Position numbers and translations under genes: made by a program. The notes under the pieces were generated by a model. The model made no database searches, was not told the DNA's origin, and worked only from the letters and a program-made list of their open reading frames with translations. A stretch of 53,598 bases of DNA. Source: Allobosea sp. 12-68-7. GTDB taxonomy: Bacteria > Pseudomonadota > Alphaproteobacteria > Rhizobiales > Beijerinckiaceae. The DNA is taken from the NCBI GenBank assembly GCA_002279705.1, contig NCCO01000002.1:1-53598 (forward strand), written 5' to 3'. Every line of letters begins with the position of its first letter. Within the stretch, counting starts at the first letter, position 1. Shown piece by piece: positions 9,196 through 25,382 of this stretch.

Positions 9196-9726
9196 TCACC
9201 GTCCGGTGCCGCAGCGGGCCAGCACCTCTGCGAGCGGCTGGGCCTGCGCCAGCATCAGCGCGGCGATGCCCTGGATGTCGTCGATGTCGATGACCGGGCG
9301 GCCTGCCTCGGGGAAAGCGGTATCGCTCGCCACCGCGACGATGGTGGGATCGCCGGGATGCAGCGGCGGCTTGCCATTGGCCGCCCGGTGGATCTCGATC
9401 TTGGCGTGAGCCTGGCGCTTGAAGCCCTCGACGATGACGAGATCGACCGGCGAGAGCCTCGCCAGCAGGCCCGGCAGCTCGGCCTCCGGTTCGTCACGCA
9501 GCTCCCGCATCAGGGCCCAGCGCCGCTCCGAGGAGATCAGCACCTCGCGCGCCCCGGCCTCGCGATGGGCATGGGAATCCTTGCCGGGCGTATCGAGATC
9601 GAAGGCGTGGTGGGCGTGCTTGAGCGTCGAGACCGAGACACCACGACGCCCCAGTTCCGGAATCAGACGGGTGACCACAGTGGTCTTGCCTGCTCCGCTC
9701 CACCCTGCCAGGCCGATCACACGCAT
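9196..9726 (-). CDS. mobB: Molybdopterin-guanine dinucleotide biosynthesis protein MobB
   Basis: P-loop GTP-binding protein of 176 residues that assists MobA in making the bis-MGD cofactor. The Walker A motif GWSGAGKT lies at residues 8-15 (MRVIGLAGWSGAGKTTVV). The family segment STLKHAHHAFDLDTPGKDS follows, then HREAGAREVLISSERRWAL and the Walker B-like DLVIVEGFKRQAHAKIEI. It lies between the gamma-subunit gene and moeA on the same strand. A terminator hairpin separates it from the gamma gene, so part of its expression may come from read-through or a promoter in the 80-base gap. Confidence 0.96.
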   Translation of the reverse strand: MRVIGLAGWSGAGKTTVVTRLIPELGRRGVSVSTLKHAHHAFDLDTPGKDSHAHREAGAREVLISSERRWALMRELRDEPEAELPGLLARLSPVDLVIVEGFKRQAHAKIEIHRAANGKPPLHPGDPTIVAVASDTAFPEAGRPVIDIDDIQGIAALMLAQAQPLAEVLARCGTGR

Positions 9727-9807: not shown

Positions 9808-10815
9808 TCATTCAGCCGGCTGGAGCCGGTTGTCGGAGCCGGCACGGGCCTTCTGCATCTCTTCCTCGACCCAGAGCGAGTGATGCGCCTTGGCCCAGTT
9901 CAGATCGACCTCGCCGGAGCCCATCGCATCGAAGGCGCCTTCCATGCCGATCGAGCCGATATAGATGTGGCCGAGCATCAGCGCGATCATCAGCACCGAG
10001 ACGATGCCGTGGACGACGTTCCAGAACTGGAGATTGAGCACGCCGCCGGCATAGAACGGGAACAGCAGGTAGAAGCCCGATACCGACAGCGCCGCACCGC
10101 CGAGCACCACGCTCCAGAACACGATCTTCTGGCCGGCGTTGAAGCGGCGCGCCTCCGGATGCCCCTTGCCGATGATGCCGCCGCCGGCTGCGAACCAGCG
10201 CAGGTCCGCCAGCGTCGGGATGTTGTCCTTGATCCAGATGACGAACATCAGCGCCACGCCCAGCATGAAGGGCCAAGCCAGGAAGTTATGGGCCCATTTG
10301 GCGACGATCGAGAGGTTCGTGAAGGCCTGCGGGCCGACCAGCGGCAGCAGGACGAGCTTTCCGAAAGTGACGTTCAGGCCCGACAGCGTCAGGATGATGA
10401 AGCAGCCCGCCGTCAGCCAGTGCACGAAACGCTCGAAGGCGTTGAAGCGTGTGATGGTGGTGCCCGCCGGCCCCGCCTCATTCATGACCCGCCCGCGGAT
10501 CAGGTAGAAAGCCGTCAGCGCCAGCAGGGTGCCCAGCACCGCGATGGCGGCGATGCGCAGCATTGTCCCCTGGTGGAAGGCGCGCCAGTCGCGGCCCGCG
10601 GGACGCTCCAGCGTCGCGGCCTTCTGGTCGGGAATCGAGATGCGGCCCTGCAGTTCCGCCTGGGGATTGCCCTTCAGGGCATCCAGGAACTGCCGCTCGC
10701 GAACGGCATCGGCCGTCGGATTGACCTGCTGGGCACTCACGGGAACGGCGAAGGCGACCGCGAAGGTCAGCAGCAGGCCGGTCACCAGCAGGCGGATATG
10801 GGCGCCAAAACGCAT
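9808..10815 (-). CDS. Formate dehydrogenase gamma subunit (cytochrome b556)
   Basis: Membrane cytochrome b of 335 residues that takes electrons from the beta subunit and reduces quinone. A signal peptide (LLVTGLLLTFAVAFAVPVSA) leads into an extra N-terminal periplasmic stretch of about 90 residues, ahead of the four-helix FdnI-like core. Candidate haem-ligand histidines sit in ERFVHWLTAGCFIILTLSG, AKWAHNFLAWPFMLG and VVHGIVSVLMIALMLGHIYI. The core length agrees with E. coli FdnI; the N-terminal extension is usual in proteobacterial FDH clusters of this type. It follows the beta gene after a 149-base gap that has GC-rich palindromes (for example ctcctcgcgaggag at 10923-10936) but no coding sequence. 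Confidence 0.93.
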   Translation of the reverse strand: MRFGAHIRLLVTGLLLTFAVAFAVPVSAQQVNPTADAVRERQFLDALKGNPQAELQGRISIPDQKAATLERPAGRDWRAFHQGTMLRIAAIAVLGTLLALTAFYLIRGRVMNEAGPAGTTITRFNAFERFVHWLTAGCFIILTLSGLNVTFGKLVLLPLVGPQAFTNLSIVAKWAHNFLAWPFMLGVALMFVIWIKDNIPTLADLRWFAAGGGIIGKGHPEARRFNAGQKIVFWSVVLGGAALSVSGFYLLFPFYAGGVLNLQFWNVVHGIVSVLMIALMLGHIYIGSIGMEGAFDAMGSGEVDLNWAKAHHSLWVEEEMQKARAGSDNRLQPAE

Positions 10816-10964: not shown

Positions 10965-11561
10965 CTAGATGGCGATGTTGTCCTTGTAGGCCGTCTGCCA
11001 GCCCCAGGCGCCCGAGCCATAGCCGCGCTTCACCACCCGCTCCTTGTAGATCTGGGCGATGATCTCGCCGTCACCGGCCAGCAGCGACTTGGTCGAGCAC
11101 ATCTCGGCGCAAAGCGGCAGCTTGCCTTCGGCGAGACGGTTCGAGCCGTATTTCTGGAACTCGACCGGCGAGAGGTCCGCCTCGGGGCCGCCGGCGCAGA
11201 AGGTGCACTTGTCCATCTTGCCGCGCGAACCGAAGTTGCCGACCTTCGGATACTGCGGCGCGCCGAAGGGGCAGGCGTAGAAGCAGTAGCCGCAGCCGAT
11301 GCAGAGGTCCTTGCTGTGCAGCACCACGGCATCCGCCGTGGTGTAGAAGCAGTCGACCGGGCAGACCGCCGCGCAGGGCGCGTCGGTGCAGTGCATGCAA
11401 GCCATCGAGACCGAGCGCTCGCCGGGCTTGCCGTCATTGATCGTGACGACACGGCGGCGGTTGATGCCCCAGGGCACCTCGTTCTCGTTCTTGCAGGCGG
11501 TGACGCAGGCGTTGCACTCGATGCAGCGATCCGCGTCGCAGAGGAATTTCATCCGGGCCAT
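10965..11561 (-). CDS. fdh3B: Formate dehydrogenase beta subunit, four [4Fe-4S] clusters (FDH3 type)
   Basis: Electron-transfer subunit of 198 residues joining the catalytic subunit to the cytochrome b. Four ferredoxin-type cysteine sets are visible: CIECNACVTACK (residues 13-24), CMHCTDAPCAAVCP, CIGCGYCFYACP, and CTFCAGG with a distal CAEMC. It lacks the C-terminal membrane anchor of E. coli FdnH (about 290 residues), as expected of the shorter FDH3-type beta subunits. With no signal peptide, it must be exported together with the Tat-targeted alpha subunit. The start lies 15 bases after the alpha stop, indicating one operon. Confidence 0.95.
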   Translation of the reverse strand: MARMKFLCDADRCIECNACVTACKNENEVPWGINRRRVVTINDGKPGERSVSMACMHCTDAPCAAVCPVDCFYTTADAVVLHSKDLCIGCGYCFYACPFGAPQYPKVGNFGSRGKMDKCTFCAGGPEADLSPVEFQKYGSNRLAEGKLPLCAEMCSTKSLLAGDGEIIAQIYKERVVKRGYGSGAWGWQTAYKDNIAI

Positions 11562-11576: not shown

Positions 11577-14555
11577 TTACGCCGCTGCGATCTGGCAGAG
11601 CGTGACCTTGCCTTCGTGCATCGCCGTGACCGGGTCGTAACCATAGGTCGTGACGACGTTGACCGACTCGCCGAGCACGATCGGATCCGTGCCCTTCGGG
11701 TAGTTCCCGCGCTGGTCCTGGCCCTGGTAGAAGCCGCCGAAGTGGAACGGCATGAAGGCCACGCCCTTGCCGACACGCTCCGTCACCAGCGCCTTGACGC
11801 GGGCCTTGGAGTTGTTCTCGGGGCCGGACACCCAGACGAAAGCACCGTCCTTGATGCCACGCGCCGCCGCGTCCGCAGGATTGATCTCGACGAACATGTC
11901 CTGCTGCAACTCGGCCAGCCACTTGTTCGAGCGCGTTTCCTCGCCACCGCCCTCGTACTCCACGAGACGACCCGAGGTGAGGACGATCGGGAAGGACTTG
12001 GCGATGCCCTTCTCGACCGCGGCCTTCTGGACCGAGGTATGGAGGTTGGGGATGCGCAGGGTCCGCTCATCGGGACGGGCCGGCCACTTCGCGACCAGAT
12101 CGACACGCGGCGAGTAGATCGGCTCACGATGGGTCGGCACAGGGTCGGGCAGGTTCCAGGCGTTGGCGCGGGCCTTGCCATTGCCGTAGGGCACGCAGCC
12201 ATGCTTGAGCGCGACACGCTGGATGCCGCCGGACAGGTCGTTCGCCCAGTTCACCGCGTCGATGTTGTTGCCACCGATCCAGGTGATGGTCTCGAGTTCC
12301 TTGGGCGTCAGGTCGGCATCCCAGCCGAGCTTCTTCAGCACGCCCATGGTGAACTCGGGATAGCCGTCCTTGATGTCCGAGTTCAGCGAGTAGGAGCCGT
12401 TCTCCGCCAGCAGCGTTTCGCTGACCTTTCTGCCGTCGGCGAGCGTGCGCTCGTAGGTCAGGCCGAAGCGCGGACGGAAGGTGCCGCCGCCATTCTTGGC
12501 CTCAAGAGAGGTGTTGTAGAGAATATGCGTGCCGGGGTGCTTGAGATCCGGCGTGCCCCAGCATGGCCAGGGAAGGCCGTAGAAGTCGTTTTCGACGGGG
12601 GAGCCCTGGGCGCCGCGCAGGGTGACCAGGTCGAACTTGTCCTGATGCTCCATGTGCAGCTTGAGGCGCTCGGGAGACTGGCCGGTGTAGCCCGTCGACC
12701 AGCCGCCGCGGTTGATCTCGCGCAGGATCGACTCCGCCGACGGCTCGGGGCCGAACTTGCCCTGCACCATCTCGAAGTTCTTGTGCATCTGCTCGGCGAA
12801 ACCGAGCTTCTGCGCCAGCTTGTAGATCACGAAGTAGTCGCTGGCGGCCTCGAAGATCGGCTCCACCACCTTCTCGCCCCACTGCACCGAGCGGTTCGAG
12901 CAGGTGCGCGAGCCGGCGCATTCGAACTGCGTCCCGATCGGCAGGATATAGGTGCCGTTCTTGCGCCCGCCGAGCGAGACGAAGTTGGTCGGGTGCGGAT
13001 CGGCGACGACGAGCAGCTCGAGCTTCTCGAGACCCTTCACCGCATCGGGCATGCGGGGAATCGTGTTGCCGCCATGGCCCATCACGAACATGGCCTTGAG
13101 GTTGTCCATCTGGTCGACCTGCTCGGTCGGCAGATTGGCGGCGTCGAACCAGCGGGTCGAGGTGTGGCCCGAGGTCTCCATATTGGCCTTGCGGGTCCGC
13201 GCCGGACGGCCGCCCTTGGCCGGCACTTCGTCGAAGCGGGTGACGAAGTAGTCGTAGGGCACGTCCCAGACGCGGGCCCAGTGGCGCCAGGCGCCCTCGA
13301 CCAAGCCGTAATAGCAAGGCAGATTCGCGATATCGAGGCCGAAATCGGTCGCGCCCTGCACGTTGCAGTGGCCGCGGAAGATGTTGGCGCCATTGCCCAT
13401 GCCGCCGACATTGCCGGTGGCGAGCAGAAGGTTGCAGATGGCGCGGACATTGGCGGTGCCGACCGAGTGCTGGGTCACGCCCATGCACCAGATGAACGTG
13501 GCTGGCTTGACCTTAGCGAAGGTCTCGGCGGCGCGCTTGAGCTGCGCCTCGGGCACGCCGGTGATGTCTTCGACGGTCTTGGGGTCATATTTCTCGACCT
13601 CCTTGCGGACGTCGTCCATCCCGTGCACGCGGGCGGCGAGGAAAGCCTTGTCCTCCCAGCCGTTCTTGAAGATGTGCCACATCATCCCCCAGATCACCGG
13701 AATGTCAGTGCCCGAGCGGATGCGGATGTAGTCCGTCGCATGAGCCGCGGTGCGGGTCAGGCGCGGATCGAAGACGATGACGTTGGCGCGGTTCTGTTCC
13801 TTGCCGACCAGGATGTGCTGCATCGAGACCGGATGGGCCTCGGCCGCGTTCGAGCCCATGAACAGGATCGTCTTGGAATTGCGGATGTCGTTGTAGGAGT
13901 TCGTCATCGCGCCGTAGCCCCAGGTGTTGGCGACACCCGCGACCGTGGTGGAGTGACAGATGCGCGCCTGGTGGTCGACGTTGTTCGTGCCCCAGAAGGC
14001 GGCGAACTTGCGGAACAGATACGCACCCTCGTTCGAGAACTTGGCCGAGCCGAGCATGTAGACGGAGTCAGCGCCGGACTTCGCCCGGATCTGCATCATC
14101 TTGTCGCCGATCTCGTTGATCGCGACATCCCAGGAGATGCGCTGCCACTGGCCGTCGACCAGCTTCATCGGATACTTGATGCGGCGATCACCATGAACCA
14201 GCTCGCGCACCGCCGCGCCCTTGGCGCAATGCGAGCCGCGATTGATCGGGCTCTCCCAGGCCGGCTCCTGGCCGACCCAGACGCCATTGACCACCTCGGC
14301 CTTGACGGTGCAGCCCACCGAACAGTGAGTGCAGATGTTCTTGACGACCTTCGTGCCCGTCGCCGGACCGAGGCCGGCGGCCTCCGCCTTGCGGACCGAC
14401 CCGATCTGGAGGGCGCCGACAGCGGCGACGCCGCCAGCGACCAGACCGGAACGGCGGAGGAAGGCACGGCGGTCCATGACGCCGGAGGACAGGCCGGCGA
14501 TCGCCGCCTGAAGCCGGCCGCGCTGGACGTCGGCGGTTTTGCGCTTGATCAGCAT
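11577..14555 (-). CDS. Formate dehydrogenase alpha subunit (Mo/W-bisMGD, cysteine type, Tat-exported)
   Basis: Catalytic subunit of 992 residues oxidising formate to CO2 on the periplasmic side. A twin-arginine signal, DRRAFLRRSG (R29, R30), precedes a hydrophobic stretch ending near KAEA. The N-terminal cluster ligands are C75, C78, C82 and C110. The metal ligand is C200 followed by H201 (QARICHSTTV). Its codon is TGT, so this is a cysteine rather than selenocysteine enzyme, though other regions resemble FdnG. The bis-MGD domains are clear (TRTAAHATDYIRIRSGTDIP; CMGVTQHSVGTANVRAICNL; MGHGGNTIPRMPDAVKG). The C-terminal cap domain contains LTSGRLVEYEGGGEETRSN. It lies between the small Tat-signal gene and the beta gene in one transcript. 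Confidence 0.97.
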   Translation of the reverse strand: MLIKRKTADVQRGRLQAAIAGLSSGVMDRRAFLRRSGLVAGGVAAVGALQIGSVRKAEAAGLGPATGTKVVKNICTHCSVGCTVKAEVVNGVWVGQEPAWESPINRGSHCAKGAAVRELVHGDRRIKYPMKLVDGQWQRISWDVAINEIGDKMMQIRAKSGADSVYMLGSAKFSNEGAYLFRKFAAFWGTNNVDHQARICHSTTVAGVANTWGYGAMTNSYNDIRNSKTILFMGSNAAEAHPVSMQHILVGKEQNRANVIVFDPRLTRTAAHATDYIRIRSGTDIPVIWGMMWHIFKNGWEDKAFLAARVHGMDDVRKEVEKYDPKTVEDITGVPEAQLKRAAETFAKVKPATFIWCMGVTQHSVGTANVRAICNLLLATGNVGGMGNGANIFRGHCNVQGATDFGLDIANLPCYYGLVEGAWRHWARVWDVPYDYFVTRFDEVPAKGGRPARTRKANMETSGHTSTRWFDAANLPTEQVDQMDNLKAMFVMGHGGNTIPRMPDAVKGLEKLELLVVADPHPTNFVSLGGRKNGTYILPIGTQFECAGSRTCSNRSVQWGEKVVEPIFEAASDYFVIYKLAQKLGFAEQMHKNFEMVQGKFGPEPSAESILREINRGGWSTGYTGQSPERLKLHMEHQDKFDLVTLRGAQGSPVENDFYGLPWPCWGTPDLKHPGTHILYNTSLEAKNGGGTFRPRFGLTYERTLADGRKVSETLLAENGSYSLNSDIKDGYPEFTMGVLKKLGWDADLTPKELETITWIGGNNIDAVNWANDLSGGIQRVALKHGCVPYGNGKARANAWNLPDPVPTHREPIYSPRVDLVAKWPARPDERTLRIPNLHTSVQKAAVEKGIAKSFPIVLTSGRLVEYEGGGEETRSNKWLAELQQDMFVEINPADAAARGIKDGAFVWVSGPENNSKARVKALVTERVGKGVAFMPFHFGGFYQGQDQRGNYPKGTDPIVLGESVNVVTTYGYDPVTAMHEGKVTLCQIAAA

Positions 14556-14813: not shown

Positions 14814-15620
14814 TCATGCGGGCAGCCTCGCGGCCTGTGTCTCGATCGAGAGGAACAGGCTGCCGAGCCGGCCCACGGCCTTGTAGAATTTCGCCGCCTT
14901 CGCGACCTCGAGGTCGGCGAAGAAGCGCTCGCCCCAGGGCTCGATGTGGCGGGCGTAGAAGCGGTCGGCGTCGACGCCCTCGGCCGCGACCTCGCCACGA
15001 AGCAGCTTCGCCATGATGTCGAGCAGCACGGCGATGTGGTCCTCGGGCTCGCCGGCCCGGGCGTCCCGCGCCAGGCCGAGCGCGCCCATGTCCTCCCGTA
15101 CCAGGGCCAGCGGCCGCTCGTGCAGGAAACCGGTCAGGTAATAGGAGGCGTAAGGCAGGAGTTCGCCGCGGCCGACGCCGATGAAGAGCTCGAAGAACTC
15201 GTCGCGCAGGCTTTCCGGCGTCGCCGCATCGGCGGCCTCGGCCAGAGCGAGATGGGCCATGCCCAGTGGCGAGGCGTCGCCCTGCAGGTCGCGCAGCGCC
15301 GCCAGGGTCTCGGCCGTCGGCGCCCGCCAGAGCAGCGCGCCGACCAGCTCGCATTCATGGGCGCGGGCAGCATCGATCTCGTCGATCGGCTGCGAGATCA
15401 GGATCTGCGACTGCATCGCCGCGGCGGGATCGGGGCGAGGGTAGAGGTCGGGCCGCAGCTCGGAGCGCGGAATACCCGTCGTCGCCTCGACCGAGAGGAC
15501 GCGGTCGGCAGGGACGCGCTTCCAGCTCGAGATGGCGGGCTGAGAAATGCCGAGGCTGCGCGCCAGAGCCCTGACGCCACCAACGCTACCGATCGCTTTT
15601 TCGAGTGCCGGATCGCGCAT
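14814..15620 (-). CDS. HTH-TorD fusion: Cro/YdaS-like DNA-binding domain joined to a TorD-family chaperone
   Basis: A 268-residue two-domain protein. Residues 1-60 form a YdaS/Cro-like helix-turn-helix (IGSVGGVRALARSLGISQPA then ISSWKRVPADRVLSVEATTG). Residues about 75-265 are an all-helical TorD/DmsD-type chaperone (FELFIGVGRGELLPYASYYL; then GFLHERPLAL, EPEDHIAVLLDIMAKLL and HIEPWGERFFADLE). TorD chaperones bind the Tat signal of molybdoenzymes, here presumably the alpha subunit encoded 259 bases downstream. The HTH suggests the same protein also binds DNA and could link enzyme maturation to transcription. It has no strong ribosome site: GAGG is 16 bases from the ATG. An FNR-like box abuts the start codon. 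Confidence 0.9.
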   Translation of the reverse strand: MRDPALEKAIGSVGGVRALARSLGISQPAISSWKRVPADRVLSVEATTGIPRSELRPDLYPRPDPAAAMQSQILISQPIDEIDAARAHECELVGALLWRAPTAETLAALRDLQGDASPLGMAHLALAEAADAATPESLRDEFFELFIGVGRGELLPYASYYLTGFLHERPLALVREDMGALGLARDARAGEPEDHIAVLLDIMAKLLRGEVAAEGVDADRFYARHIEPWGERFFADLEVAKAAKFYKAVGRLGSLFLSIETQAARLPA

Positions 15621-15634
15621 TTGATTCAGGTCAA
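15621..15634 (-). promoter_or_regulatory. FNR/FixK-type box abutting the HTH-TorD start codon
   Basis: TTGAT-TCAG-GTCAA on the plus strand matches the FNR/FixK consensus TTGAT-N4-ATCAA at 9 of 10 positions. It ends directly against the ATG of the HTH-TorD gene. That position suits a repressor better than an activator. The match may be chance. Confidence 0.35.
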
Positions 15635-15681
15635 GGTCCTCGAGGCGCAGGGCATTCAGACTGCAGCGCCAACTGCGGGTG

Positions 15682-15696
15682 ATAACGACTGGTTAT
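15682..15696 (-). promoter_or_regulatory. ATAAC-N5-GTTAT dyad upstream of the HTH-TorD gene
   Basis: A perfect 5+5 bp dyad, ATAAC-GACTG-GTTAT, lies 62 bases upstream of the start in an A+T-richer stretch. It fits the T-N11-A pattern of LysR-type sites and could equally be the operator of the HTH-TorD protein itself. No LysR gene lies in the window. Confidence 0.35.
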
Positions 15697-15713
15697 TGCT
15701 CAAACATAAAACG

Positions 15714-15739
15714 ATTCCAATCTCCTTTCAGATTGGAAT
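15714..15739 (-). terminator. Hairpin at the DUF3306 stop, likely terminator
   Basis: A perfect 10-bp stem (attccaatct / agattggaat) with a 6-nt loop includes the end of the DUF3306 gene. It is followed on the minus strand by CGTTTTATG. It probably separates the accessory-gene transcript from the FDH structural operon. Confidence 0.55.
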
Positions 15740-16444
15740 TGCGCCACCTCCACGCTTGCGAAGGCGCGGAGCGGTTGCCTCCTGAGGCGCCTCCTGTTGC
15801 GCCGCAGCATAGACGGAGAGAGGCGGCATCTCCGGCCCAATCTCGTTCATGGGGGTATTTTCGCCCGCGTCGGACAAACGCAGCGCCACCGGCTCGGGCT
15901 CGCCGCGCGTATCTTCTTGCACTGCACCATGAGCCGCATCACTTTCGTCATTAGACGAAAGTGGGTGCGGCAAGCCGTCGCTACCCGCCTCCTGATTGAC
16001 CAGCGCGGCCTCCGCGATGGCCGGCGGCTCCCCGAAGATGCCGCGGACCAGCTCGGCGACGTCGTCCGATTCCGTCAGCGGCCCATAGCCGGGCGCGCCG
16101 CCGGGCGTGTTCCAGTCGAGCGCATAATCGCGCGCCGGGTTCTCGAAATTCGCGATGGCCGGGTCGTTCTCCCAGGCGCGTCGCATCGCCGCCAGCTTCC
16201 AGGCTTCCGGCACATTCTGCTTCAGCCAGGAGGCGAGATCGAAATCCTTGTCGATCAGGTCGAGAGACGGCGGCTCGACCAGCTCGGGCTCGGGTTCCGC
16301 CGCCGCAGCCTCGGCCGACACCTCGCTCGCCGGCTGCTCGGCCGGTAGCGTCTCGACGCCCTTGTCCTCATCCGGCTCCGCCCCGCGCTTGCGGCGCGAC
16401 CAGCGGCTGAGGAAACCCTCGTCCTGCGGGGTGCGCGCGCTCAC
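15728..16444 (-). CDS. DUF3306 domain protein of the formate dehydrogenase cluster
   Basis: A 238-residue acidic cytoplasmic protein with no membrane span. The N-terminal FLSRWSRRKRGAEPDED leads into an Ala/Glu-rich low-complexity stretch. The conserved core is SLDLIDKDFDLASWLKQNVP, then EAWKLAAMRRAWENDPAI and RDYALDWNTPGGAPGYGPL. The C-terminal tail is Pro/Gln-rich and ends with RLRKRGGGAIPI. DUF3306 is found beside FDH genes in many proteobacteria (Shewanella, Rhizobiales), next to DUF3305 as here. Its start overlaps the DUF3305 stop by 4 bases. The function is unknown; a role in assembly or activity of the dehydrogenase is inferred from context. Confidence 0.9.
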   Translation of the reverse strand: MSARTPQDEGFLSRWSRRKRGAEPDEDKGVETLPAEQPASEVSAEAAAAEPEPELVEPPSLDLIDKDFDLASWLKQNVPEAWKLAAMRRAWENDPAIANFENPARDYALDWNTPGGAPGYGPLTESDDVAELVRGIFGEPPAIAEAALVNQEAGSDGLPHPLSSNDESDAAHGAVQEDTRGEPEPVALRLSDAGENTPMNEIGPEMPPLSVYAAAQQEAPQEATAPRLRKRGGGAIPI

Positions 16445-16971
16445 CGCCGCTCCCCCGGTCCGGCTTCGTCCCGATGCAGGCCCGGCCCGGGCCGCGGCGC
16501 GCCGCCCTTGCGCGGGTCGTGCTCGCTACGCTTGCGCTTGATGAACTCGCGCTCGACATGATGCGCCTCGAAGAAGGCCAGCACCGCCTCGGCCACCGCG
16601 AGCGGCATCGGCAGCGCCTCGACGACGTCGCCGACATTCTCGCAATAGACCTCGCCCTCGAAGGGATCGGCGGTCACGCCGACGAACTCGATCTCGGGCT
16701 CGATCCCGGTCGGGCGGATCGCGACCCAGAGCTTGGCGCGGCCGGCCTGGAAGTTCTCGCGAAAATGGGCTGTGTCGACCGAATGCAACGTCAGCGTCGC
16801 GGGGCCGAGATAGAACTGGCGCCGGCCCGGCTCGCCCGGCAGCTCGGTCCAGGGCGCGAGCGGCGGCGACTCCGGCAGCACGGCGAGCGGCGCCCAGGCG
16901 TGGTCGGCCCAGGGCGAATCGATCGCGCGCCGCTCGATAACGATTCCGACCTCGATGTGCTGCTGCGTCAT
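16441..16971 (-). CDS. DUF3305 domain protein of the formate dehydrogenase cluster
   Basis: A 176-residue cytoplasmic protein. Conserved features are the opening IEVGIVIERRAIDSPWADHA, WAPLAVLPESPPLAPWTEL, and ATLTLHSVDTAHFRENF then KLWVAIRP. A following segment is VTADPFEGEVYCENVGDVVE. The short C-terminal tail (KRKRSEHDPRKGG) is basic. DUF3305 and DUF3306 almost always occur together in FDH loci; the 4-base overlap indicates translational coupling and equal amounts, consistent with a complex. The start is 10 bases after the DUF6352 stop. No catalytic motif is recognised. Confidence 0.9.
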   Translation of the reverse strand: MTQQHIEVGIVIERRAIDSPWADHAWAPLAVLPESPPLAPWTELPGEPGRRQFYLGPATLTLHSVDTAHFRENFQAGRAKLWVAIRPTGIEPEIEFVGVTADPFEGEVYCENVGDVVEALPMPLAVAEAVLAFFEAHHVEREFIKRKRSEHDPRKGGAPRPGPGLHRDEAGPGERR

Positions 16972-16981
16972 CGCCGTCTCC

Positions 16982-17992
16982 TCAGTTCGCCATTTCGCGC
17001 TGGGCGAGCGGCAGGCCGGCGACGAGGTTCTGCGGCTTCAGCCGCAGCACCCGGTCGGCCGACATCGCCATGATCAGATAGATCGGTTTGCCCTTGGCCG
17101 CGGACAAGACCGGAACCTCGGCGGGCAGGCTCAATGTGAAGAGGGCAAGCACGCGCGCCATGTCGTCGGCGGCGACCGTCTTGCCCTGCCAGAGCGCATT
17201 GCCGATCGCCGTCGCCTCCGCGTCGAGCCCGACGAACCAGCGCCAGTCCGCGTCCGTCACCGTCTCCAACGGCTCGACGACGACGTCGAAACCATGGATC
17301 TGGCGGATCCAGTGGCGCAGCGCCTGGCCGAGCGCCGCCCGTCCGGAGGGCGCGCTGCCGAGGTCGAGCACCATGTCGAACCCGTCGGAGCGCTGCCAGT
17401 AGTGGTCGGCATTGGCGGGCTTCAGAATGTCGAGCGCGGTCGCCGCCGGCCCGCCGAGCATGGCGAGCAACGGCGAGGCGTGCCGGTCGGCCTCGTGCCC
17501 CTCGATCATCTCGGCATCGGCGAGCAGGATCGTGTTCTCGTGATGGGTGACGCGCTGCGGGCGGAACAGGCATTCGGCAGCGCGGGCGACGAAGGGATCG
17601 TCCGCCTCGTCGAGCGCGGCGCGCATGATCACATGGACCAGCTGATCGAGGAAGAGCGGCGGGATGCTGCCGGTGCCGTTGCGGACGATCCCGGCATAGG
17701 CCGCCTCCAGCGTCGGCGCGGCCAGCAGGCGGTCGCGCCAGCCGAGCATGAAGCGCCAGTTCTCGCGGGCGTCCTCGTCGATGATCGCCTCGATCGCGGC
17801 GGCCGGAATCTCCGCCTGAGGCGTCTCCATCAGCCTGGCGTGAAGCGCGCGCTCGGCCTCGCAGGCCTCGTCCGGCGGCAGCAGTTCCGGCCGGGCGAGA
17901 TAGGCCTTGAGGAAATCGTCGGTCACGCGCAGCCCGCCACCGGGCTCGCGGTCGAGCAGGAGATGGCCGGAACTGGCCCAGAAATGCGTCAT
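16982..17992 (-). CDS. DUF6352 family protein
   Basis: A 336-residue protein of unknown function, starting MTHFWASSGHLLLDREPGG. It is mostly helical and soluble, with no signal peptide. Conserved-looking blocks are VTDDFLKAYLARPELLPP, CEAERALHARLM, LFRPQRVTHHENTILLADAE, HYWQRSDGFDMVLDLG and LRHWIRQIHGFDVVVEPL. The HHEN and HYWQRSD motifs, with several acidic residues, could bind metal or cofactor; this is a guess. The family occurs in FDH loci of Rhizobiales. The start overlaps the DUF6505 stop by 4 bases (ATGA). It belongs to the minus-strand accessory operon 19283-15728. Confidence 0.85.
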   Translation of the reverse strand: MTHFWASSGHLLLDREPGGGLRVTDDFLKAYLARPELLPPDEACEAERALHARLMETPQAEIPAAAIEAIIDEDARENWRFMLGWRDRLLAAPTLEAAYAGIVRNGTGSIPPLFLDQLVHVIMRAALDEADDPFVARAAECLFRPQRVTHHENTILLADAEMIEGHEADRHASPLLAMLGGPAATALDILKPANADHYWQRSDGFDMVLDLGSAPSGRAALGQALRHWIRQIHGFDVVVEPLETVTDADWRWFVGLDAEATAIGNALWQGKTVAADDMARVLALFTLSLPAEVPVLSAAKGKPIYLIMAMSADRVLRLKPQNLVAGLPLAQREMAN

Positions 17993-18543
17993 GTCAGCCT
18001 GGTCTTTTCGAGATTGAGAAGATCGACATGCTCGACCGGCCCGTCCTCCTCGCCCGCCACCTCGAGGAACTCGAAGGCGCGGAAGCCTTCGCTCTGGCTG
18101 GCGTGGCGCGGGGTCAGGGTGCGGAAGCGCTCGCGGATCTCGCCGTCCTCCAGCGTCCGGTGCAGGGCGAGCAGGGTCTGCGGAGGATGATCGCAGAGGG
18201 CGGCAGCGAAGGCGATCTCCTCGGATGCGGCGGCGCGCGCGGTCGCGAGATCGGGCGCGCCGAGCTTGTCGACGAGATGGCCGGCGAGGCTTTCGACCGC
18301 CGCCTCGCGCTCGGCCGCCGTCGCCTCCGTCACCACGGCGAGCGTGCTCCAGCCGAAGCTCGCCACGCCCAGGAAGCCGGAACGGAAGGCGGCCTTGCCC
18401 TTCGAATCGAGGGCCGAGGGATCGGACTGGCCGAACAGGAAGGAGCCAGTCACCAGCCATTCCCCCGATTCGGCCGCCTTGCGGAAGACGAAGCTGTCGG
18501 ATGGGTCGAGCCGGATGGCGCGGGGCAGTTTCAGACCGATCAC
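17989..18543 (-). CDS. DUF6505 family protein
   Basis: A 184-residue cytoplasmic protein of unknown function. It begins at a GTG that overlaps the upstream stop (GTGA) and ends overlapping the next start, so all five genes of this operon are tightly coupled. Recognisable segments are KLPRAIRLDPSDSFVFRKAA, EWLVTGSFLFGQSDP, RSGFLGVASFGWSTLAVVTE and a helical C-terminal half. The tail is FLEVAGEEDGPVEHVDLLNL. The family is known mainly from the neighbourhood of the lipoate-ligase-like and DUF6352 genes. No motif assigns an activity. Confidence 0.82.
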   Translation of the reverse strand: MIGLKLPRAIRLDPSDSFVFRKAAESGEWLVTGSFLFGQSDPSALDSKGKAAFRSGFLGVASFGWSTLAVVTEATAAEREAAVESLAGHLVDKLGAPDLATARAAASEEIAFAAALCDHPPQTLLALHRTLEDGEIRERFRTLTPRHASQSEGFRAFEFLEVAGEEDGPVEHVDLLNLEKTRLT

Positions 18544-19283
18544 AGCTTCGGCCCGCCGCTGTCCCGATCGAGCCAGTCGACCCGCGCCAGCGCCTCGACG
18601 AGGCTGCGGCGCTGCGTTCCCGCCTGGGTGGTCGCGACGAGATCGCCATTCGGCTCGATGCCGTGACGGGTGCCCACGACCTTGTCGAGCCGGTCGAGCC
18701 AACGCAGCGCGGCCGCTTTCGGCCCGGCGCTCTGCCAGCGGGTGACGGCGAGCATGAGGTGGCGGGCAAAGGCCTCGATCAGGTCGACCGCATCGATCTC
18801 CTCGAACCCCTCCTCGGCCATGCCGACGCCGATCTGGCCGAAGGCAAAGGGCGCCATCGTGGTGGCACGCAGCATGCCACCGAAGACGACCCATTCGGGC
18901 ACCTCGTCCTCGCCGCAGCCCTCGGGCCAGGCCAGCCGGCCGCCCCCGATCAGCCCGAGATCGTAGATCAGCGCATCGGGCCAGCGGAACAGGATCGGCC
19001 GCTCGGGCGGGCTGTAGACCGCGAGCGCATCCGCCAGCGCCGTCATCGCGAGATAATGCGCCAGCCGCGCCTCGCGCAGCGGGTTGTCGGGCTCCAGCAC
19101 CACGGCGAATTCGATCACGTCGAAGCGACGGGTCCAGACCAGCGTCGCAGCCCCCGCCTCGGCGGCGATCGTGCAGGCATGGGCGAAGGCGTCGCCCGAT
19201 TCCCGCAGCGTGACGAGCGAGAATCCCGGCGGCAGCACCGGCTCGCGACGCAGATCGTCCGGGCGCAGAGCACTGGCTGCCAT
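18540..19283 (-). CDS. Biotin/lipoate protein ligase-like protein (DUF4444 type), catalytic lysine motifs not seen
   Basis: A 247-residue protein with the BirA/LplA-like fold signature. The segment RWPDALIYDLGLIGGGRL corresponds to the KWPNDL...KLAGI strand pair of biotin ligases, and VLPPGFSLVTLRESGDAF to the N-terminal part. The GRGRRGR-type loop is not visible, and the lysine expected in the K-L-A-G-I element is replaced (G-G-G-R-L). The C-terminal 60 residues resemble the DUF4444 extension. A true ligase is therefore doubtful; it may bind a lipoyl, biotinyl or other acyl ligand, or act as a scaffold. It is first in the accessory operon; the ATG at 19281-19283 has GGAGGA 8 bases upstream. 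Confidence 0.82.
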   Translation of the reverse strand: MAASALRPDDLRREPVLPPGFSLVTLRESGDAFAHACTIAAEAGAATLVWTRRFDVIEFAVVLEPDNPLREARLAHYLAMTALADALAVYSPPERPILFRWPDALIYDLGLIGGGRLAWPEGCGEDEVPEWVVFGGMLRATTMAPFAFGQIGVGMAEEGFEEIDAVDLIEAFARHLMLAVTRWQSAGPKAAALRWLDRLDKVVGTRHGIEPNGDLVATTQAGTQRRSLVEALARVDWLDRDSGGPKL

Positions 19284-19405: not shown

Positions 19406-21457
19406 ATGAAGCCCGCCATGCCTGACACCACCCGCACGCTGATGGTGTGCTCGTGCGAGGACACGATGCCGCTCGATGCGGCAGCGCTCGCCCGCGGCTG
19501 CAAGGGCGCCGATATCCGGACCGCACGCCATCTCTGCCGGACCCAGACCGAGCTGTTCACACGCGCGCTCGGCGAGAGCGCCGCCGTCACCGTCGCCTGC
19601 ACGCAGGAGGCACCGCTGTTCGAGGAGATCGCGGCCGATCTCGACTATGCCGGGGAGCTGGTCTTCGCCAACATCCGCGAGACGGGCGGCTGGTCGCGCG
19701 AGGCCAAGGCGGCGGGCCCGAAGATGGCGGCGCTGCTGGCCGCCGCCGCCGAGCCGATGCCGCCGATCTCGTTCACGACGCTGACCAGCAAGGGCGTCGC
19801 CCTGATCTATGGCCGCGACGAGACGGCGCTCGCGGTCGGGCAGCGGCTGGCGGAGCATCTCGACGTCACCATCCTGATCAGCCGGCCGGGCGAGATCACG
19901 CCGCCGCGCGTGGTCGAGACGCCGGTGCTGAAGGGGACCATCGTGTCGGCGACCGGCTGGCTTGGCGCCTTCGAGCTGCGCATCGACGACTATGCCGCGC
20001 CGGCCCCCTCCTCCCGGGCAAAGCTCGTCTTCGGCGAGCCGCGCAACGGCGCGACCTCGCAATGCGACCTCGTCATCGACGTCTCCGGCGGCACGCCTTT
20101 GTTTCCCGCCGGCGAGTTGCGCGCGGGCTATCTGCGGGCGGACCCGGCGAGCCCTGCCGCCATCGAAAAGCTGATCGCGGAAGCCGGCCATCTCGTCGGC
20201 GAGTTCGACAAGCCGACCTATGTCCGGCTGAACGAGGATCTCTGCGCCCATTCGCGCTCGAAGAAGACCGGCTGCACGCGCTGCCTCGAGCTCTGCCCGA
20301 CCGGGGCCATCACGCCCAATGGCGACCATGTCGCGATCTCGGCCGAGATCTGCGCCGGCTGCGGCGCCTGTGCCGCGGTCTGCCCGACCGGGGCGGTGAC
20401 CTATGCGCTGCCGCCGGCCGACGCGCTGCTGCGCCGGCTGCGCACGCTGCTCGCGACCTATGCCGAGGCCGGCGGGCGCGAGCCGGTCGTGCTGCTGCAT
20501 GACGAGGCGCATGGCGAGCCGCTGATCGATGCGCTCGCGCGCTTCGGCGAGGGGCTGCCGGCCCGCGTGCTGCCGCTGCGCGTCAACGAGATCACCCAGA
20601 TCGGGCTCGATGCCTTCGCGGCGGCGCTCGCCTTTGGCGCGGCCTCCGTGCAGGTGCTCGGCCGCGCCCGCCCGAAGCACGATCTCTCCGGGCTGCAGCG
20701 CAACCTCGCCTATGCCGAGACGCTCGCCGCCGCGCTCGGCTATGGAGCCGGCAGCGCCGGGCTGATCGAGACCGACGACCCTGAGCAGCTGGCGGTGGCA
20801 CTGGCGCGGCTCGTGCCGGGCACGGTCTCGCCGAAGCCGGCGCGCTTCCGCCCGATGGGCGAAGGCCGGCCGCTGCTGCGCCAGACGATCGGCGAGCTGC
20901 ACGCTGCGGCGCCGATGCCCGTGGCCACGGTGGCGCTGCCGCCGCGCGCGCCCTTCGGCACCGTGCATGTCGACACCGATGGCTGTACGCTCTGCCTGGC
21001 CTGCGTCTCGGCCTGCCCGGTGCAGGCGCTGTCTGATGATCCCGAGCGGCCGACGCTCGCCTTCCAGGAGGACCTCTGCGTGCAGTGCGGGCTGTGTGCC
21101 GCGACCTGTCCGGAGAAGGTCATCACGCTGGAGCCGCGCATCGATTTCGAGGCCTGGAAGGGCGGCAAGCGCGTGCTGAAGCAGGAGGAGCCGTTCCACT
21201 GCATCAGCTGCGCCAAGCCTTTCGGCGTGCGCAGCACGATCGAGAAGATCACCGCCAGGCTCGAGAACAAGCACTGGATGTTCTCGGGCGACGCGGCCAA
21301 GCGCATCTCGGTCCTGAAGATGTGCGAGGATTGCCGCGTCGAGGTCGTCGTCAACGAGAGCTTCGACCCGCATCTCTCGCCGCAGCGCCCGCCGGTGCGC
21401 ACGACGGAGGATTATCTGCGCGAGCGTGCCGAGCGCGGGGAAGACCCGCTGCAGTAG
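19406..21457 (+). CDS. Large 4Fe-4S protein of the formate dehydrogenase cluster
   Basis: A 683-residue soluble iron-sulfur protein with four ferredoxin-type cysteine sets in two pairs. The first pair, near residues 285-330, is CTRCLELCPTGAI and CAGCGACAAVCPTGAV. The second pair, near residues 525-575, is CTLCLACVSACPVQAL and CVQCGLCAATCPEKVI. An N-terminal MVCSCEDTMPLD and a C-terminal CxxC pair (FHCISCAKPFG and KMCEDCRVEV) could bind zinc or another cluster. The middle (residues 340-500) resembles HdrA/MvhD-like electron-transfer folds only weakly. The family accompanies DUF3305/DUF3306 in FDH loci. A likely role is supplying electrons or clusters during maturation. An alternative ATG at 19418 is better spaced from GAGG and may be the real start. 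Confidence 0.88.
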   Translation: MKPAMPDTTRTLMVCSCEDTMPLDAAALARGCKGADIRTARHLCRTQTELFTRALGESAAVTVACTQEAPLFEEIAADLDYAGELVFANIRETGGWSREAKAAGPKMAALLAAAAEPMPPISFTTLTSKGVALIYGRDETALAVGQRLAEHLDVTILISRPGEITPPRVVETPVLKGTIVSATGWLGAFELRIDDYAAPAPSSRAKLVFGEPRNGATSQCDLVIDVSGGTPLFPAGELRAGYLRADPASPAAIEKLIAEAGHLVGEFDKPTYVRLNEDLCAHSRSKKTGCTRCLELCPTGAITPNGDHVAISAEICAGCGACAAVCPTGAVTYALPPADALLRRLRTLLATYAEAGGREPVVLLHDEAHGEPLIDALARFGEGLPARVLPLRVNEITQIGLDAFAAALAFGAASVQVLGRARPKHDLSGLQRNLAYAETLAAALGYGAGSAGLIETDDPEQLAVALARLVPGTVSPKPARFRPMGEGRPLLRQTIGELHAAAPMPVATVALPPRAPFGTVHVDTDGCTLCLACVSACPVQALSDDPERPTLAFQEDLCVQCGLCAATCPEKVITLEPRIDFEAWKGGKRVLKQEEPFHCISCAKPFGVRSTIEKITARLENKHWMFSGDAAKRISVLKMCEDCRVEVVVNESFDPHLSPQRPPVRTTEDYLRERAERGEDPLQ

Positions 21458-21603: not shown

Positions 21604-22878
21604 TCAGCGCGTCACCTTCTCCAGCCAGTCGACCAGCGCCTGCCGGTCTTCCGCCGAACCGATCGTCTGCTCGGGCATCTTGGTGCCGGGCGTGTAGGCG
21701 TTGGGGCCGATCTCGAAGAGCTTCGCCACCGTCTCCTTGGTCCAGACGATGTCCATCGTCCTGAAGGCCTCGGAATAGGCGTAGCCCGGCGCGCTGGCGA
21801 TGCGGCGGCCGAAGATGCCGTGCAGTGTCGGCCCGGCGCGGTTGCCATCCGACGGGGTCAGGGTGTGGCAGGCGGCGCAGGCGCGGAAGACCTGCGCGCC
21901 GCGCTCGCCGTTGAAGGCCGCCAGCACATCCGCCCCGGCGCGCGGCACCACCGTGCCGATATGCTCGCCCGTGACGGCGTTCCAGCGCCGCACGAGACGG
22001 TCGGCGCCGCCGGAGAGGATCTGGCGGCCATCCGGCAGGAAGGCCAGCGACCAGACCGGCAGGCCCGGCCCGACCAGCGTCGCGCGGATGCGGCGTGCGG
22101 CCCGGTCGACCAGCGCCACCTGGCCGCGCAGGCCCCCGGCGGCCAGCGTCGTGCCGTCGGCCGAGAGCGCCAGCGCGATCAGCGGCGTCTCGCCCACGGC
22201 CACCTCCCCGTGCGCCTGCCCATCCGGGCCGAAGAGCCGCAGCCGCCCATCAGCCGCGGCGACGGCGATCTCGCCATCGGCGGCCACGACGACCCCGTTG
22301 AGCGGGGCCGGCAGCGTGACGATCCGGGGGGCGCTGGCGTCCGTCGGCCAGATCCGCAGCGTCGCGTCGTAGCCGGCGGTGACGAGGCCGCCGCCGGGCA
22401 GGAAGGCGACGCCGTTGACCGGCCCCTGATGCCCCTCGAAGGCAACCGCAGCGCCGCCCTCGCGCGGCGTGACGCGCGCCGTCCCGTCCCAGGAGGCGGA
22501 GGCGATGCGGCGCCCATCGGCCGAGACCGCCAGCGCGGCCACGGGCCCCTTGTGGCCCTCGATGACCTCGGCCGGCGCCGCCGCCGCGCCGCGCCAGAGC
22601 GCGATGCGCCCGTCCTCGGCACCGGTGGCGAAGCCGAGGCCCGGCACGGCCGCGACCGCGTTGACCGCGCCCTCATGGAAGCGCAGCACGGCCTCCGCCG
22701 TGCCGCCCGACAGGCTCCAGAGGATGGCCGACTGGTCGAAGGAGCCGGTCATGGCACTCGCACCGTCGGGCGCGACCGCAATGGCGCGCACCGGCCCGCC
22801 ATGGCCACGCAGCTCCTGGCCGGAGGCGGGGTGGGCGAGGCAGAGAAGAAGGACGAGAGGCTTCAGGACAGATCGCAT
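21604..22878 (-). CDS. WD40-repeat protein fused to a class I cytochrome c
   Basis: A 424-residue exported protein. The signal peptide (SVLKPLVLLLCLAHPASGQE) is followed by about six to seven WD40-type repeats (for example GHGGPVRAIAVAPDG; EGHKGPVAALAVSADGRRIA; EGHQGPVNGVAFLPGGGLVT). The C-terminal 100 residues are a c-type cytochrome with CAACH haem attachment and axial methionine probably in GTKMPEQTIG, plus LHGIFGRRIAS as in cytochrome c2. It should lie in the periplasm, its propeller offering a docking surface and its haem accepting electrons. The start at 22878 has only a distant GGAGG. It converges with the 4Fe-4S gene and diverges from tusA. A role with the dehydrogenase is inferred from location. 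Confidence 0.9.
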   Translation of the reverse strand: MRSVLKPLVLLLCLAHPASGQELRGHGGPVRAIAVAPDGASAMTGSFDQSAILWSLSGGTAEAVLRFHEGAVNAVAAVPGLGFATGAEDGRIALWRGAAAAPAEVIEGHKGPVAALAVSADGRRIASASWDGTARVTPREGGAAVAFEGHQGPVNGVAFLPGGGLVTAGYDATLRIWPTDASAPRIVTLPAPLNGVVVAADGEIAVAAADGRLRLFGPDGQAHGEVAVGETPLIALALSADGTTLAAGGLRGQVALVDRAARRIRATLVGPGLPVWSLAFLPDGRQILSGGADRLVRRWNAVTGEHIGTVVPRAGADVLAAFNGERGAQVFRACAACHTLTPSDGNRAGPTLHGIFGRRIASAPGYAYSEAFRTMDIVWTKETVAKLFEIGPNAYTPGTKMPEQTIGSAEDRQALVDWLEKVTR

Positions 22879-22996
22879 CGTTCCATCATGCCGCCTCCCC
22901 GGCGCCGTGACAAAGCGGCCAGTTGCCCCGGTGCGACCGAGCATCCTATGAAGCCCGCGCGACTTCGAAGCCAACGCCCTGCAGCTGGTTCCCGCC

Positions 22997-23227
22997 ATGA
23001 CCGCCACGCCCCTCAATCTCCGCGGCCTGAAATGCCCCCTGCCGGCGCTGCGGGTCCGCAAGGCGCTGAAGGGGGCTGCACCCGGCACGCTGTTCCTGGT
23101 CGAATGCACCGATCCGATGGCGGCCATCGACATTCCCAACCTGATGCGCGAAACCGGGGATGCGATCGAGGAGAGCCGCAGCGACGGCGATCTGCTCGTC
23201 TTCCACATCCGCAAGGCGTCGGCCTGA
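22997..23227 (+). CDS. TusA-family sulfur carrier protein
   Basis: A 76-residue sulfurtransferase of the TusA/SirA/YeeD fold. The CPxP motif with the active cysteine C13 is in LRGLKCPLPALRVRKALKG, and the family's second half appears as VECTDPMAAIDIPNLMRETG. TusA-type proteins pass persulfide sulfur to partners. In an FDH cluster with FdhD the obvious acceptor is the molybdenum cofactor of the alpha subunit; this link is inference, though TusA is known to influence molybdoenzyme maturation in E. coli. It is followed after 24 bases by the Mrp gene and probably co-transcribed. Confidence 0.92.
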   Translation: MTATPLNLRGLKCPLPALRVRKALKGAAPGTLFLVECTDPMAAIDIPNLMRETGDAIEESRSDGDLLVFHIRKASA

Positions 23228-24755: not shown

Positions 24756-25382
24756 TCAAGCCGGCGGCAAAGTGGCGAACAGGCGCTCGGCCTCGTCCAG
24801 GTCCTCGGGCTTGTTGGCGTTGAAGAAGGGATCGACTGGATCGACTGGCCACTGCGCGCTGGCGCAGCCATGGCGGGCGGTCCAGCGGTCGATCTTGCGC
24901 TCGTCCTCGACCGTCAGGGCGTGGCGCAGATCATCCCGCAGCGACACCGGCCAGAGCCCGATGACAGGGTGCGTCCAGCCGCCCGAGGCCGCACAGGCGA
25001 GCGGGACGTTCTGCGCCTCGCGCGCCTCATGCAGGCGGGCGACGAGATCGCTGGGTATGAAGGGCGTGTCGGCGGCGACACTGACGAGCCATTGCAGCTC
25101 GGGGCGGTTCTCCGCCATCCAGTCGAGCCCCGCCAGGATGCCGGCGAGCGGGCCGGCAAAATCAGGCACGCTGTCGGCGATGACCGGCAGGCCGTAAGCA
25201 GCGAAGCGGGCGGGGTCCCCATTGGCGTTGACCAGCAGGCGATCGCATTGGGGCGCCAGGCGCTCGATGACATGGGCGAGGATGCTGCGGCCTCCGATGG
25301 TCCGCAGCGGCTTGTCGCCGCCGCCCATGCGGCGCGCGAGACCGCCGGCGAGGAGCAGGCCGAGGGTGGGCGGGGTGCTCAC
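24756..25382 (-). CDS. mobA: Molybdenum cofactor guanylyltransferase MobA
   Basis: A 208-residue nucleotidyltransferase that adds GMP from GTP to molybdopterin to form MGD. The GTP-binding signature [20 protein letters not shown] is at residues 9-28. The catalytic-site segments [14 protein letters not shown] and [13 protein letters not shown] are present near the middle and end. It starts at GTG. Upstream is a family A repeat and then fdhD, all on the minus strand. Together with mobB and moeA at 7.9-9.7 kb, it makes this island self-sufficient for the last steps of bis-MGD synthesis. Confidence 0.95.

Follow-up and report, generated by a model that had tools for sequence, protein, structure and literature searches.

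What do five adjoining genes do that stand upstream of a set of formate dehydrogenase (FDH) genes in a 53,598-nucleotide (nt) stretch of Allobosea sp. 12-68-7 (contig NCCO01000002.1, positions 1 to 53,598; hereafter the window)? They encode a protein resembling biotin and lipoate ligases, followed by members of the families DUF6505, DUF6352, DUF3305 and DUF3306. Judging from comparative genomics, we propose, with a probability of about 0.68, that the five proteins are cytoplasmic maturation factors organized in two modules, dedicated to the adjoining FDH3-type enzyme, which is exported by the twin-arginine translocation (Tat) pathway and is probably a tungsten enzyme, and that none of them ends up as a subunit of the mature enzyme. 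The draft genome to which the window belongs, as contig C271, is that of a Bosea-like alphaproteobacterium, and the DUF6352 protein of the window is 93% identical to the copy in a Bosea metagenome-assembled genome.

Open reading frame coordinates together with Pfam and NCBIfam profiles place the block and the FDH genes on the minus strand in the order described earlier: transcription runs from the ligase-like gene through DUF6505, DUF6352, DUF3305 and DUF3306 to the TorD-type chaperone, a small Tat protein, FdhA, FdhB, FdhC, MobB and MoeA. A polyferredoxin gene diverges from the block, and beyond it lie genes for a WD40-cytochrome c protein, TusA, Mrp/ApbC, MobA and FdhD. The block and the enzyme genes are the following (lengths in amino acids, aa; E, expectation value):

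18540..19283, minus strand: ligase-like protein (BPL_LplA_LipB_2), 247 aa; PF16917, 171 bits; PDB 3bfm, E 7e-66
17989..18543, minus strand: DUF6505 protein, 184 aa, GTG start; PF20115, 197 bits; 4-nt overlap at both ends
16982..17992, minus strand: DUF6352 protein, 336 aa; PF19879, 209 bits
16441..16971, minus strand: DUF3305 protein, 176 aa; PF11749, 111 bits
15728..16444, minus strand: DUF3306 protein, 238 aa; PF11748, 51 bits
14814..15620, minus strand: TorD-type chaperone, 268 aa, with an N-terminal YdaS/Cro-like helix-turn-helix (HTH) at residues 6-61; PF02613 at residues 115-234, 97 bits
14569..14769, minus strand: small Tat-signal protein of formate dehydrogenase regions, 66 aa; TIGR02811, 45 bits, slightly below the cut-off of 48; RRSFF motif
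11577..14555, minus strand: FdhA catalytic subunit, 992 aa; Pfam molybdopterin domains; PDB 9vap_A, 1200 bits; Tat motif; Cys201
10965..11561, minus strand: FdhB, FDH3 beta subunit, 198 aa; NF038355, 338 bits; PDB 9vap_B, E 3e-97
9808..10815, minus strand: FdhC cytochrome b subunit, 335 aa; PF01292; PDB 1kqf_C, E 9e-21

Gene coupling and modules

Three of the four internal junctions of the block are 4-nt overlaps (18543-18540, 17992-17989 and 16444-16441), in agreement with the original prediction of genes joined mostly in this way; the junction between DUF6352 and DUF3305 departs from it, being a 10-nt spacer. Likewise, the block does lead, in the order described, to the HTH-TorD gene, the small Tat protein and the FDH subunits, but a 107-nt spacer with a hairpin separates DUF3306 from the HTH-TorD gene. 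The coupling of the block is not due to chance and recurs in other genomes. Among co-oriented loci, the ligase-like gene adjoins DUF6505 in 48 of 50, DUF6505 adjoins DUF6352 in all 44, and DUF3305 adjoins DUF3306 in 70 of 71. On the other hand, DUF6352 and DUF3305 are neighbours in just 36 of 46 loci and overlap in none of those measured. These counts are not independent, because many of the loci come from close relatives (Bosea and kin), and spacer lengths across loci are approximate, since start sites were estimated from alignments.

The neighbouring genes were typed in 60 loci of the surveyed genomes, 26 named loci and the window. The DUF3305-DUF3306 pair mostly stays with the TorD-Tat-FdhABC genes or with MobA-FdhD; the exceptions include three loci in which it lies on the far side of neighbouring genes (L105, L127 and L130) and one genome in which it lies about 40 kb from FdhABC (G264). 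The placement of the ligase-like, DUF6505 and DUF6352 genes (hereafter the triad) varies: they follow the cytochrome gene in L081, stand with Mrp on a separate contig in L103 and are partly scattered in genomes G016 and G345. The block consists of two modules, a DUF3305-DUF3306 core and the triad as a movable add-on. The core pair belongs to the FDH3 gene set outside Alphaproteobacteria too, and the add-on is mainly alphaproteobacterial. A single stoichiometric complex of all five proteins, as first suggested by the tight coupling, was rejected, because the modules part in many genomes and the junction between them overlaps in no measured locus.

Two secondary structures were noted at DUF3306. 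A hairpin covers its stop codon (window positions 15690-15760) and is followed by a T-rich stretch (z score -2.9; 2 of 200 shuffled sequences fold as well); it may weaken transcriptional read-through from the DUF block into the FDH genes. In addition, a perfect palindrome within the coding region (15941-15962) occurs once in the window and forms a hairpin with a z score of -4.7 against shuffled sequences; outside window-derived loci its pattern was matched only in L142, L154 and L156 among the loci searched.

Co-occurrence with FDH3

The whole-genome survey covered 190 genomes of the window's class (Alphaproteobacteria), 29 with FDH3 and 161 without. FDH3 was called from a beta subunit above the cut-off or, in G260 and G315, which are incomplete, from FdhA. 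DUF3305 is present in all 29 FDH3 genomes and in one of the 161 others (Fisher p 2e-33); with FDH3 defined by the beta subunit only, the counts are 27 of 27 against 3 of 163. DUF6352 follows with 25 of 29 against 1 of 161 and DUF6505 with 18 of 29 against 1 of 161, a match in G280 below the cut-off being left uncounted. Some PF16917 match above the Pfam cut-off was found in 108 of the 190 genomes; copies of at least 125 bits, a line for the FDH-linked ligase-like proteins set after the scores had been seen (the next score is 114.7, in the FDH3 genome G276), occur in 21 of 29 FDH3 genomes and in none of the 161 others. DUF3306 was followed in the neighbourhoods instead of the whole-genome survey. 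A phylum sample of 200 genomes had DUF3305 in 22 and DUF6352 in 9, and outside the class the ligase-like and DUF6505 genes were judged from 20-kb neighbourhoods. Co-occurrence extends to unlinked genes: in G016, some 0.3-0.4 Mb separate DUF6352 and DUF6505 from FDH3.

Viewed from the families, occurrence is restricted to FDH3 genomes with three exceptions, G313 for DUF3305, G206 for DUF6352 and G307 for DUF6505, the last match having an internal stop. FDH3 is absent from 1 of 30 genomes with DUF3305, 1 of 26 with DUF6352, 1 of 19 with DUF6505 and none of the 21 with FDH-linked ligase-like copies. The frequent occurrence without FDH that would have spoken against a dedicated maturation system was not seen, and the genomic evidence backs the original prediction of such a system.

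Several observations weigh against this reading. Genome G313 (98% complete) keeps FdhD-MobA-DUF3305-DUF3306 and the polyferredoxin, and no FdhA was found in it at E 1e-60; its locus (L099) is either a relic or serves a second client enzyme. G206 has TupA beside DUF6352 and the WD40-cytochrome (locus L122, on G206:C247), and FDH3 was not found in its assembly, which is 93% complete, 7% contaminated and in 810 contigs. Conversely, G264 has FDH3 and DUF3305 and, in whole-genome searches, none of the three add-on families. The G111 genome lacks DUF6352, and the ligase-like and DUF6505 genes were not found in the 20 kb fetched from it, while the f14, f38 and f142 lineages lack DUF6352 though they have the other two. 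The triad is dispensable for having FDH3. Moreover, within FDH3 genomes DUF6352 is unassociated with the ligase-like or DUF6505 genes (p = 1), so that the three proteins cannot be taken to form a strict complex in every genome; the ligase-like and DUF6505 genes associate weakly (p 0.03). In an FdhA tree (51 rows, FastTree), rooted by choice on G050, G066, G086 and G098, which lie outside the class and have loci without add-on genes, the next genomes to branch off are G019, which has DUF6352 and sits on a long branch, and G264, which has none of the add-on genes. The f14, f142 and f38 genomes form a clade, and G111 is nested among triad-bearing relatives.

DUF3305, DUF3306 and cofactor hand-off

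The window carries four genes for making and modifying the cofactor:

9196..9726, minus strand: MobB; PF03205, 167 bits
7935..9188, minus strand: MoeA of the MoeA1 type (Arg291, Ala312; residues named in PMC13197769), adjoining MobB
24756..25382, minus strand: MobA; PF12804
25533..26426, minus strand: FdhD sulfurtransferase; PF02634, 247 bits

In the maturation route that we propose, TorD would hold unfolded FdhA and its Tat signal, while MoeA1-MobB, MobA and FdhD would make and sulfurate the cofactor. The DUF3305-DUF3306 pair would most likely link MobA/FdhD to TorD-bound FdhA, acting in the hand-off of the bis-molybdopterin guanine dinucleotide cofactor (bis-MGD) and in a loading check, or proofreading, before export. 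Such a hand-off step is supported by the gene order FdhD-MobA-DUF3305-DUF3306-TorD in three genomes (G243, G316 and G345) and by a fusion model: the DUF3305 protein aligns at 60 bits with the C-terminal part (221-369) of the 382-position NCBIfam model NF011058 (MobA with DUF3305 domain), far below the cut-off, as expected for a single domain. The fusion is known here from the NCBIfam model alone and not from a gene. The step would operate in genomes without FdhE; a search for the N-terminal domain of FdhE (PF04216), with E. coli as positive control, found it in none of 49 genomes, of which 46 have an FDH3 locus. The TorD chaperone may also regulate transcription, since it is fused to the N-terminal HTH; in the TorD proteins of Sinorhizobium and Alloyangia, Pfam detected no such domain.

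Bay et al. (2015; PMC4464133) reported DUF3305 and DUF3306 upstream of dmsD-fdhGHI operons and, in the passages available, termed them putative membrane proteins. DUF3306 fits this label badly: its highest 19-residue hydropathy is 0.8 and it shows no hydrophobic stretch. In composition, it has 45 Asp or Glu against 20 Lys or Arg. For DUF3305 the label may hold. Two values count against a purely cytoplasmic location: a 19-residue stretch of DUF3305 (residues 116-134) reaches a hydropathy of 1.8, and one of DUF6352 reaches 1.7, where the AlphaFold2 (AF2) model puts a strand; the corresponding value for FdhC is 2.4. As both exceed the customary line of 1.6, these two proteins may contact the membrane. 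The DUF3305 profile gave no significant match to PDB sequences (best E 0.58).

Tungsten

The client enzyme probably depends on tungsten, since nearly every FDH3 genome codes for a TupA-like tungstate-binding protein and since the MobB-MoeA pair of the locus has tungsten-type residues; FDH3 itself likely contains tungsten. TupA-like proteins occur in 27 of 29 FDH3 genomes against 35 of 161 others (p 2e-13). The TupA-like protein scores 239 bits to NF041772, whose equivalog cut-off is 400. TupA or TupB genes adjoin FDH or triad genes in 21 of 89 loci examined. The window has no TupA or TupB match, and its genome carries a TupA-like gene on another contig (G000:C109, 71% identity).

According to the passages available from PMC13197769, MoeA1, MobB and FdhD are essential for tungsten incorporation into the soluble FDH1 of Methylorubrum extorquens, and Arg291 together with Ala312 biases its MoeA1 to tungsten. 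In its own numbering the window MoeA has Arg at 291 and Ala at 312, and MobB adjoins it. In the fetched loci, all 28 best-scoring-type MoeA genes within 600 nt of MobB are Arg/Ala; the window and its Bosea-like kin supply 17 of the 28. Seven other MoeA genes are Lys/Ser and six Glu/Ala. The MoeA of Methylobacterium oryzae (L179), beside MobB and an NAD-linked FDH, is Arg/Ala as well, and the MoeA genes of L139 and L166 are so without MobB; the copy close to MobB in L158, a fragment, reads Arg/gap. Seven control MoeA genes (L177, L178 and L181-L185) have annotated flanks of 0.5-1 kb that show no FDH (L177 has no neighbour, L182 an unspecified molybdopterin oxidoreductase). They have Lys at position 291 in 7/7 cases and Ala at position 312 in 5/7, so that Arg291, and not Ala312, discriminates. 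Two unannotated records are Lys/Ser (L187) and Arg/Ala (L186).

Against the tungsten assignment stand the presence of TupA-like proteins in those 35 genomes without FDH3, the canonical Lys/Ser that MoeA has in L093 and L138, two FDH loci lacking MobB, the failure of Ala312 alone to discriminate, and the nature of the Arg291/Ala312 pair as a recent marker, tested in one species in the passages available (PMC13197769).

Could the novel proteins sort metals instead? The triad, the DUF3305-DUF3306 pair or both might keep tungsten-bis-MGD apart from molybdenum-bis-MGD and deliver only the former to FDH3. This we regard as possible, though doubtful. The distribution of TupA-like proteins over FDH3 genomes and of TupA/TupB over the loci would suit it, as would the MoeA1-type residues and the several MoeA genes held by Sinorhizobium and Methylorubrum loci. 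However, TupA fails to separate triad-bearing from triad-less FDH3 genomes (G264 has TupA), the metal of FDH3 is not stated in the literature consulted, and tungsten incorporation into Methylorubrum FDH1 is explained, in the part of PMC13197769 consulted, by MoeA1, MobB and FdhD without these genes.

Extra MoeA paralogs (Lys/Ser or Glu/Ala) stand beside FDH3 clusters in L161, L158, L159, L160, L164 and L131. The FDH3-triad cluster of M. rhodinum (L161) has as its neighbour a MoeA-MobB-MoeA-MoeA group that resembles the AM1 list in the passages of PMC13197769. There, the similar moeA3 and moeA5 of M. extorquens are described as dispensable for FDH1; the extra paralogs might serve FDH3.

The enzyme and electron transfer

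The enzyme encoded at the locus is, as judged from its subunits, an FDH3-type exported formate dehydrogenase. FdhB exceeds the curated cut-off for FDH3 beta subunits (NF038355, 338 vs 240 bits), and FdhA carries the Tat motif RRAFL at residue 29 and Cys201 within ARICHS, which we take from FDH families to be the metal ligand position. A solved relative of FdhA and FdhB is available (PDB 9VAP). Because of the Tat motif, the catalytic head of FdhA is expected in the periplasm. Two genes near the block may concern electron transfer:

19406..21457, plus strand: divergent polyferredoxin, 683 aa; Fer4 matches; N-terminal domain related to HdrA, E 4e-5
21604..22890, minus strand: WD40-cytochrome c protein, 428 aa from the chosen start codon; PF00400 and PF00034; a recurrent neighbour

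The original prediction had also considered that the five genes, together with the divergent iron-sulfur (Fe-S) protein, form an electron-input system. In this case the five proteins would be structural or electron-input subunits of an extended FDH, passing electrons on the cytoplasmic side. We consider this improbable. The tight gene coupling and the adjoining polyferredoxin, which has 26 cysteines and an N-terminal region weakly but significantly related to HdrA, would agree with it. However, the motif scan found no Tat, haem or CxxC motif in any of the five block proteins, the FdhA head would lie across the membrane in the periplasm, and FDH3 loci of other lineages have no triad. Furthermore, 9vap holds the relatives of FdhA and FdhB, and the FdhC search returned no 9vap chain (the other 9vap chains lay outside the comparison). 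What stands of the electron-input idea is that the divergent Fe-S protein could, given its HdrA-related region, carry electrons; for the five proteins it found no support. The polyferredoxin gene is found beside DUF3305 in most loci, also outside the class.

The WD40-cytochrome c protein, a fusion of a beta-propeller and a cytochrome c, is a candidate periplasmic electron acceptor of FDH3. It recurs beside FDH3, and 28 of the 49 genomes examined have a match at E 1e-30 or better.

The triad

The triad proteins may form a heteromeric complex, as suggested by their tight co-translation, and would probably assist the loading of the metal cofactor or of Fe-S clusters, perhaps together with Mrp. 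A role in Fe-S or metal loading is hinted at by the linkage to Mrp/ApbC in several genomes: the Mrp gene adjoins the ligase-like gene in 9 of 11 loci with both co-oriented. In the window, the Mrp gene lies next to a TusA gene:

22997..23227, plus strand: TusA-family sulfurtransferase; PF01206
23252..24385, plus strand: Mrp/ApbC iron-sulfur carrier ATPase; PF10609 and PF01883

By sequence, the ligase-like protein has the biotin/lipoate ligase fold (PF16917, PDB 3bfm). Two lysines, of the motif KWPND and of the following GK, are needed for the activity of these ligases. In the two corresponding columns, lysine is present in 0/42 aligned sequences, the window protein included, while the motif W is kept in 40/42 and the P in 37/42. 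An active lipoate or biotin ligase was rejected on the loss of both lysines. Since the fold is kept without them, the likely role of the pseudo-ligase is to bind a nucleotide-like part of a cofactor, or else a partner, and not to attach biotin or lipoate.

DUF6352 has 24 invariant columns among 45 sequences, and its AF2 model is of high confidence (predicted local distance difference test score, pLDDT, 90.6; predicted template modelling score, pTM, 0.89). The DUF6505 model has a pLDDT of 84.5 overall, with a poorly predicted tail (149-176). In Foldseek searches neither model had a significant PDB fold match (best E 0.69 and 0.77, respectively), and the sequence profiles gave no significant match to PDB sequences (best E 0.14 for DUF6352 and 0.21 for DUF6505). 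The WD40-cytochrome fails to explain the presence of the triad: some DUF6352 genomes have no match to it at E 1e-30, and four genomes have it without DUF6352. Finally, attachment of a cofactor by the ligase-like protein to DUF6505 or another partner appears very unlikely, even though the fold is that of a ligase, DUF6505 is its most constant neighbour (48/50 loci) and Lys47 of DUF6505 is nearly invariant, because lysine is found in neither motif column, no column of the alignment has it in more than 12/42, and the DUF6505 model resembles no PDB entry significantly, lipoyl domains included.

Taken further, the maturation reading would describe a line that replaces FdhE for exported tungsten FDHs of aerobic alphaproteobacteria: FdhA, still bound to TorD and not yet exported by Tat, would be loaded by the triad and the MobA-linked DUF3305-DUF3306 pair with tungsten-bis-MGD, supplied by MoeA1-MobB, MobA and FdhD in relay, and with Fe-S clusters, supplied by Mrp. 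We put forward this fuller scheme only tentatively.

Relation to known maturation systems

Like FdhD and FdhE of E. coli, the five proteins would be FDH-dedicated cytoplasmic factors for cofactor sulfuration or insertion and export competence, and FdhD is in the window; unlike that system, FdhE was not found in the 49 genomes searched, and neither FdhE nor TorD models match any of the five proteins. The presence of a TorD-type chaperone among the neighbouring genes recalls the NarJ/TorD/DmsD maturation proteins, including FdhM of C. jejuni, beside whose operons DUF3305 and DUF3306 were noted in 2015 (PMC4464133, passages available), but the five proteins belong to separate families. The M. extorquens MoeA1-MobB-FdhD pathway has its likeness in the MobB-MoeA pair with Arg291/Ala312, in MobA and FdhD of the window and in the TupA-like protein elsewhere in the genome. 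Its client FDH1 is soluble (PMC13197769, passages available), whereas the client here is a Tat-exported FDH3, and a term search of the text of that paper, as available, finds neither 'DUF' nor 'FDH3'. The ligase-like protein shares the fold and the motif WP with BirA and LplA and has lost their motif lysines. HdrA of heterodisulfide reductase bears on the polyferredoxin only, whose N-terminal domain, the part compared, is related to it (E 4e-5).

A review of FDH maturation (PMC10609526) covers FdhD, FdhE and FdhM, and a term search of the available text gives no DUF family and no lipoate; the passages available from PMC12628762 contain nothing on the block genes. A literature search in open-licence papers found none on a ligase-like-DUF6505-DUF6352 module. 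The four DUF families led just to the 2015 paper and to one on aquaporin antibodies that seemed unrelated, and the ligase-like family together with DUF6494 to a single Wolbachia genome paper. The block had been called undescribed and without assigned function. This needs qualification, as DUF3305 and DUF3306 beside FDH operons have been in print since 2015 (PMC4464133, passages available) and a structure of the ligase-like family, PDB 3BFM, has been solved; 3BFM was deposited as a protein of unknown function, and to that extent the description holds.

There is demand for CO2-reducing FDHs as catalysts, and their production in foreign hosts is limited by maturation of the alpha subunit, which was named the major bottleneck for soluble FDH1 in 2026 (PMC13396061, passages available). 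If our proposal is true, exported FDHs, possibly with tungsten, could become accessible through co-expression of the five proteins, and the way in which the cofactor is loaded before Tat export without FdhE would become visible in this system. The question is directly testable, because these small families are tied closely to a single enzyme and lend themselves to deletion one gene at a time.

Further neighbouring genes

A small DUF6494 protein recurs in FDH3 clusters elsewhere, with 18 matches in 89 loci (for example L167:5947-6153, L168:9477-9668 and L180:6393-6587) and none in the window. In the window, a DUF2478 protein (26440-27021) adjoins FdhD; this family is also annotated beside MoeA on a Leisingera plasmid, with a molybdopterin oxidoreductase adjoining.

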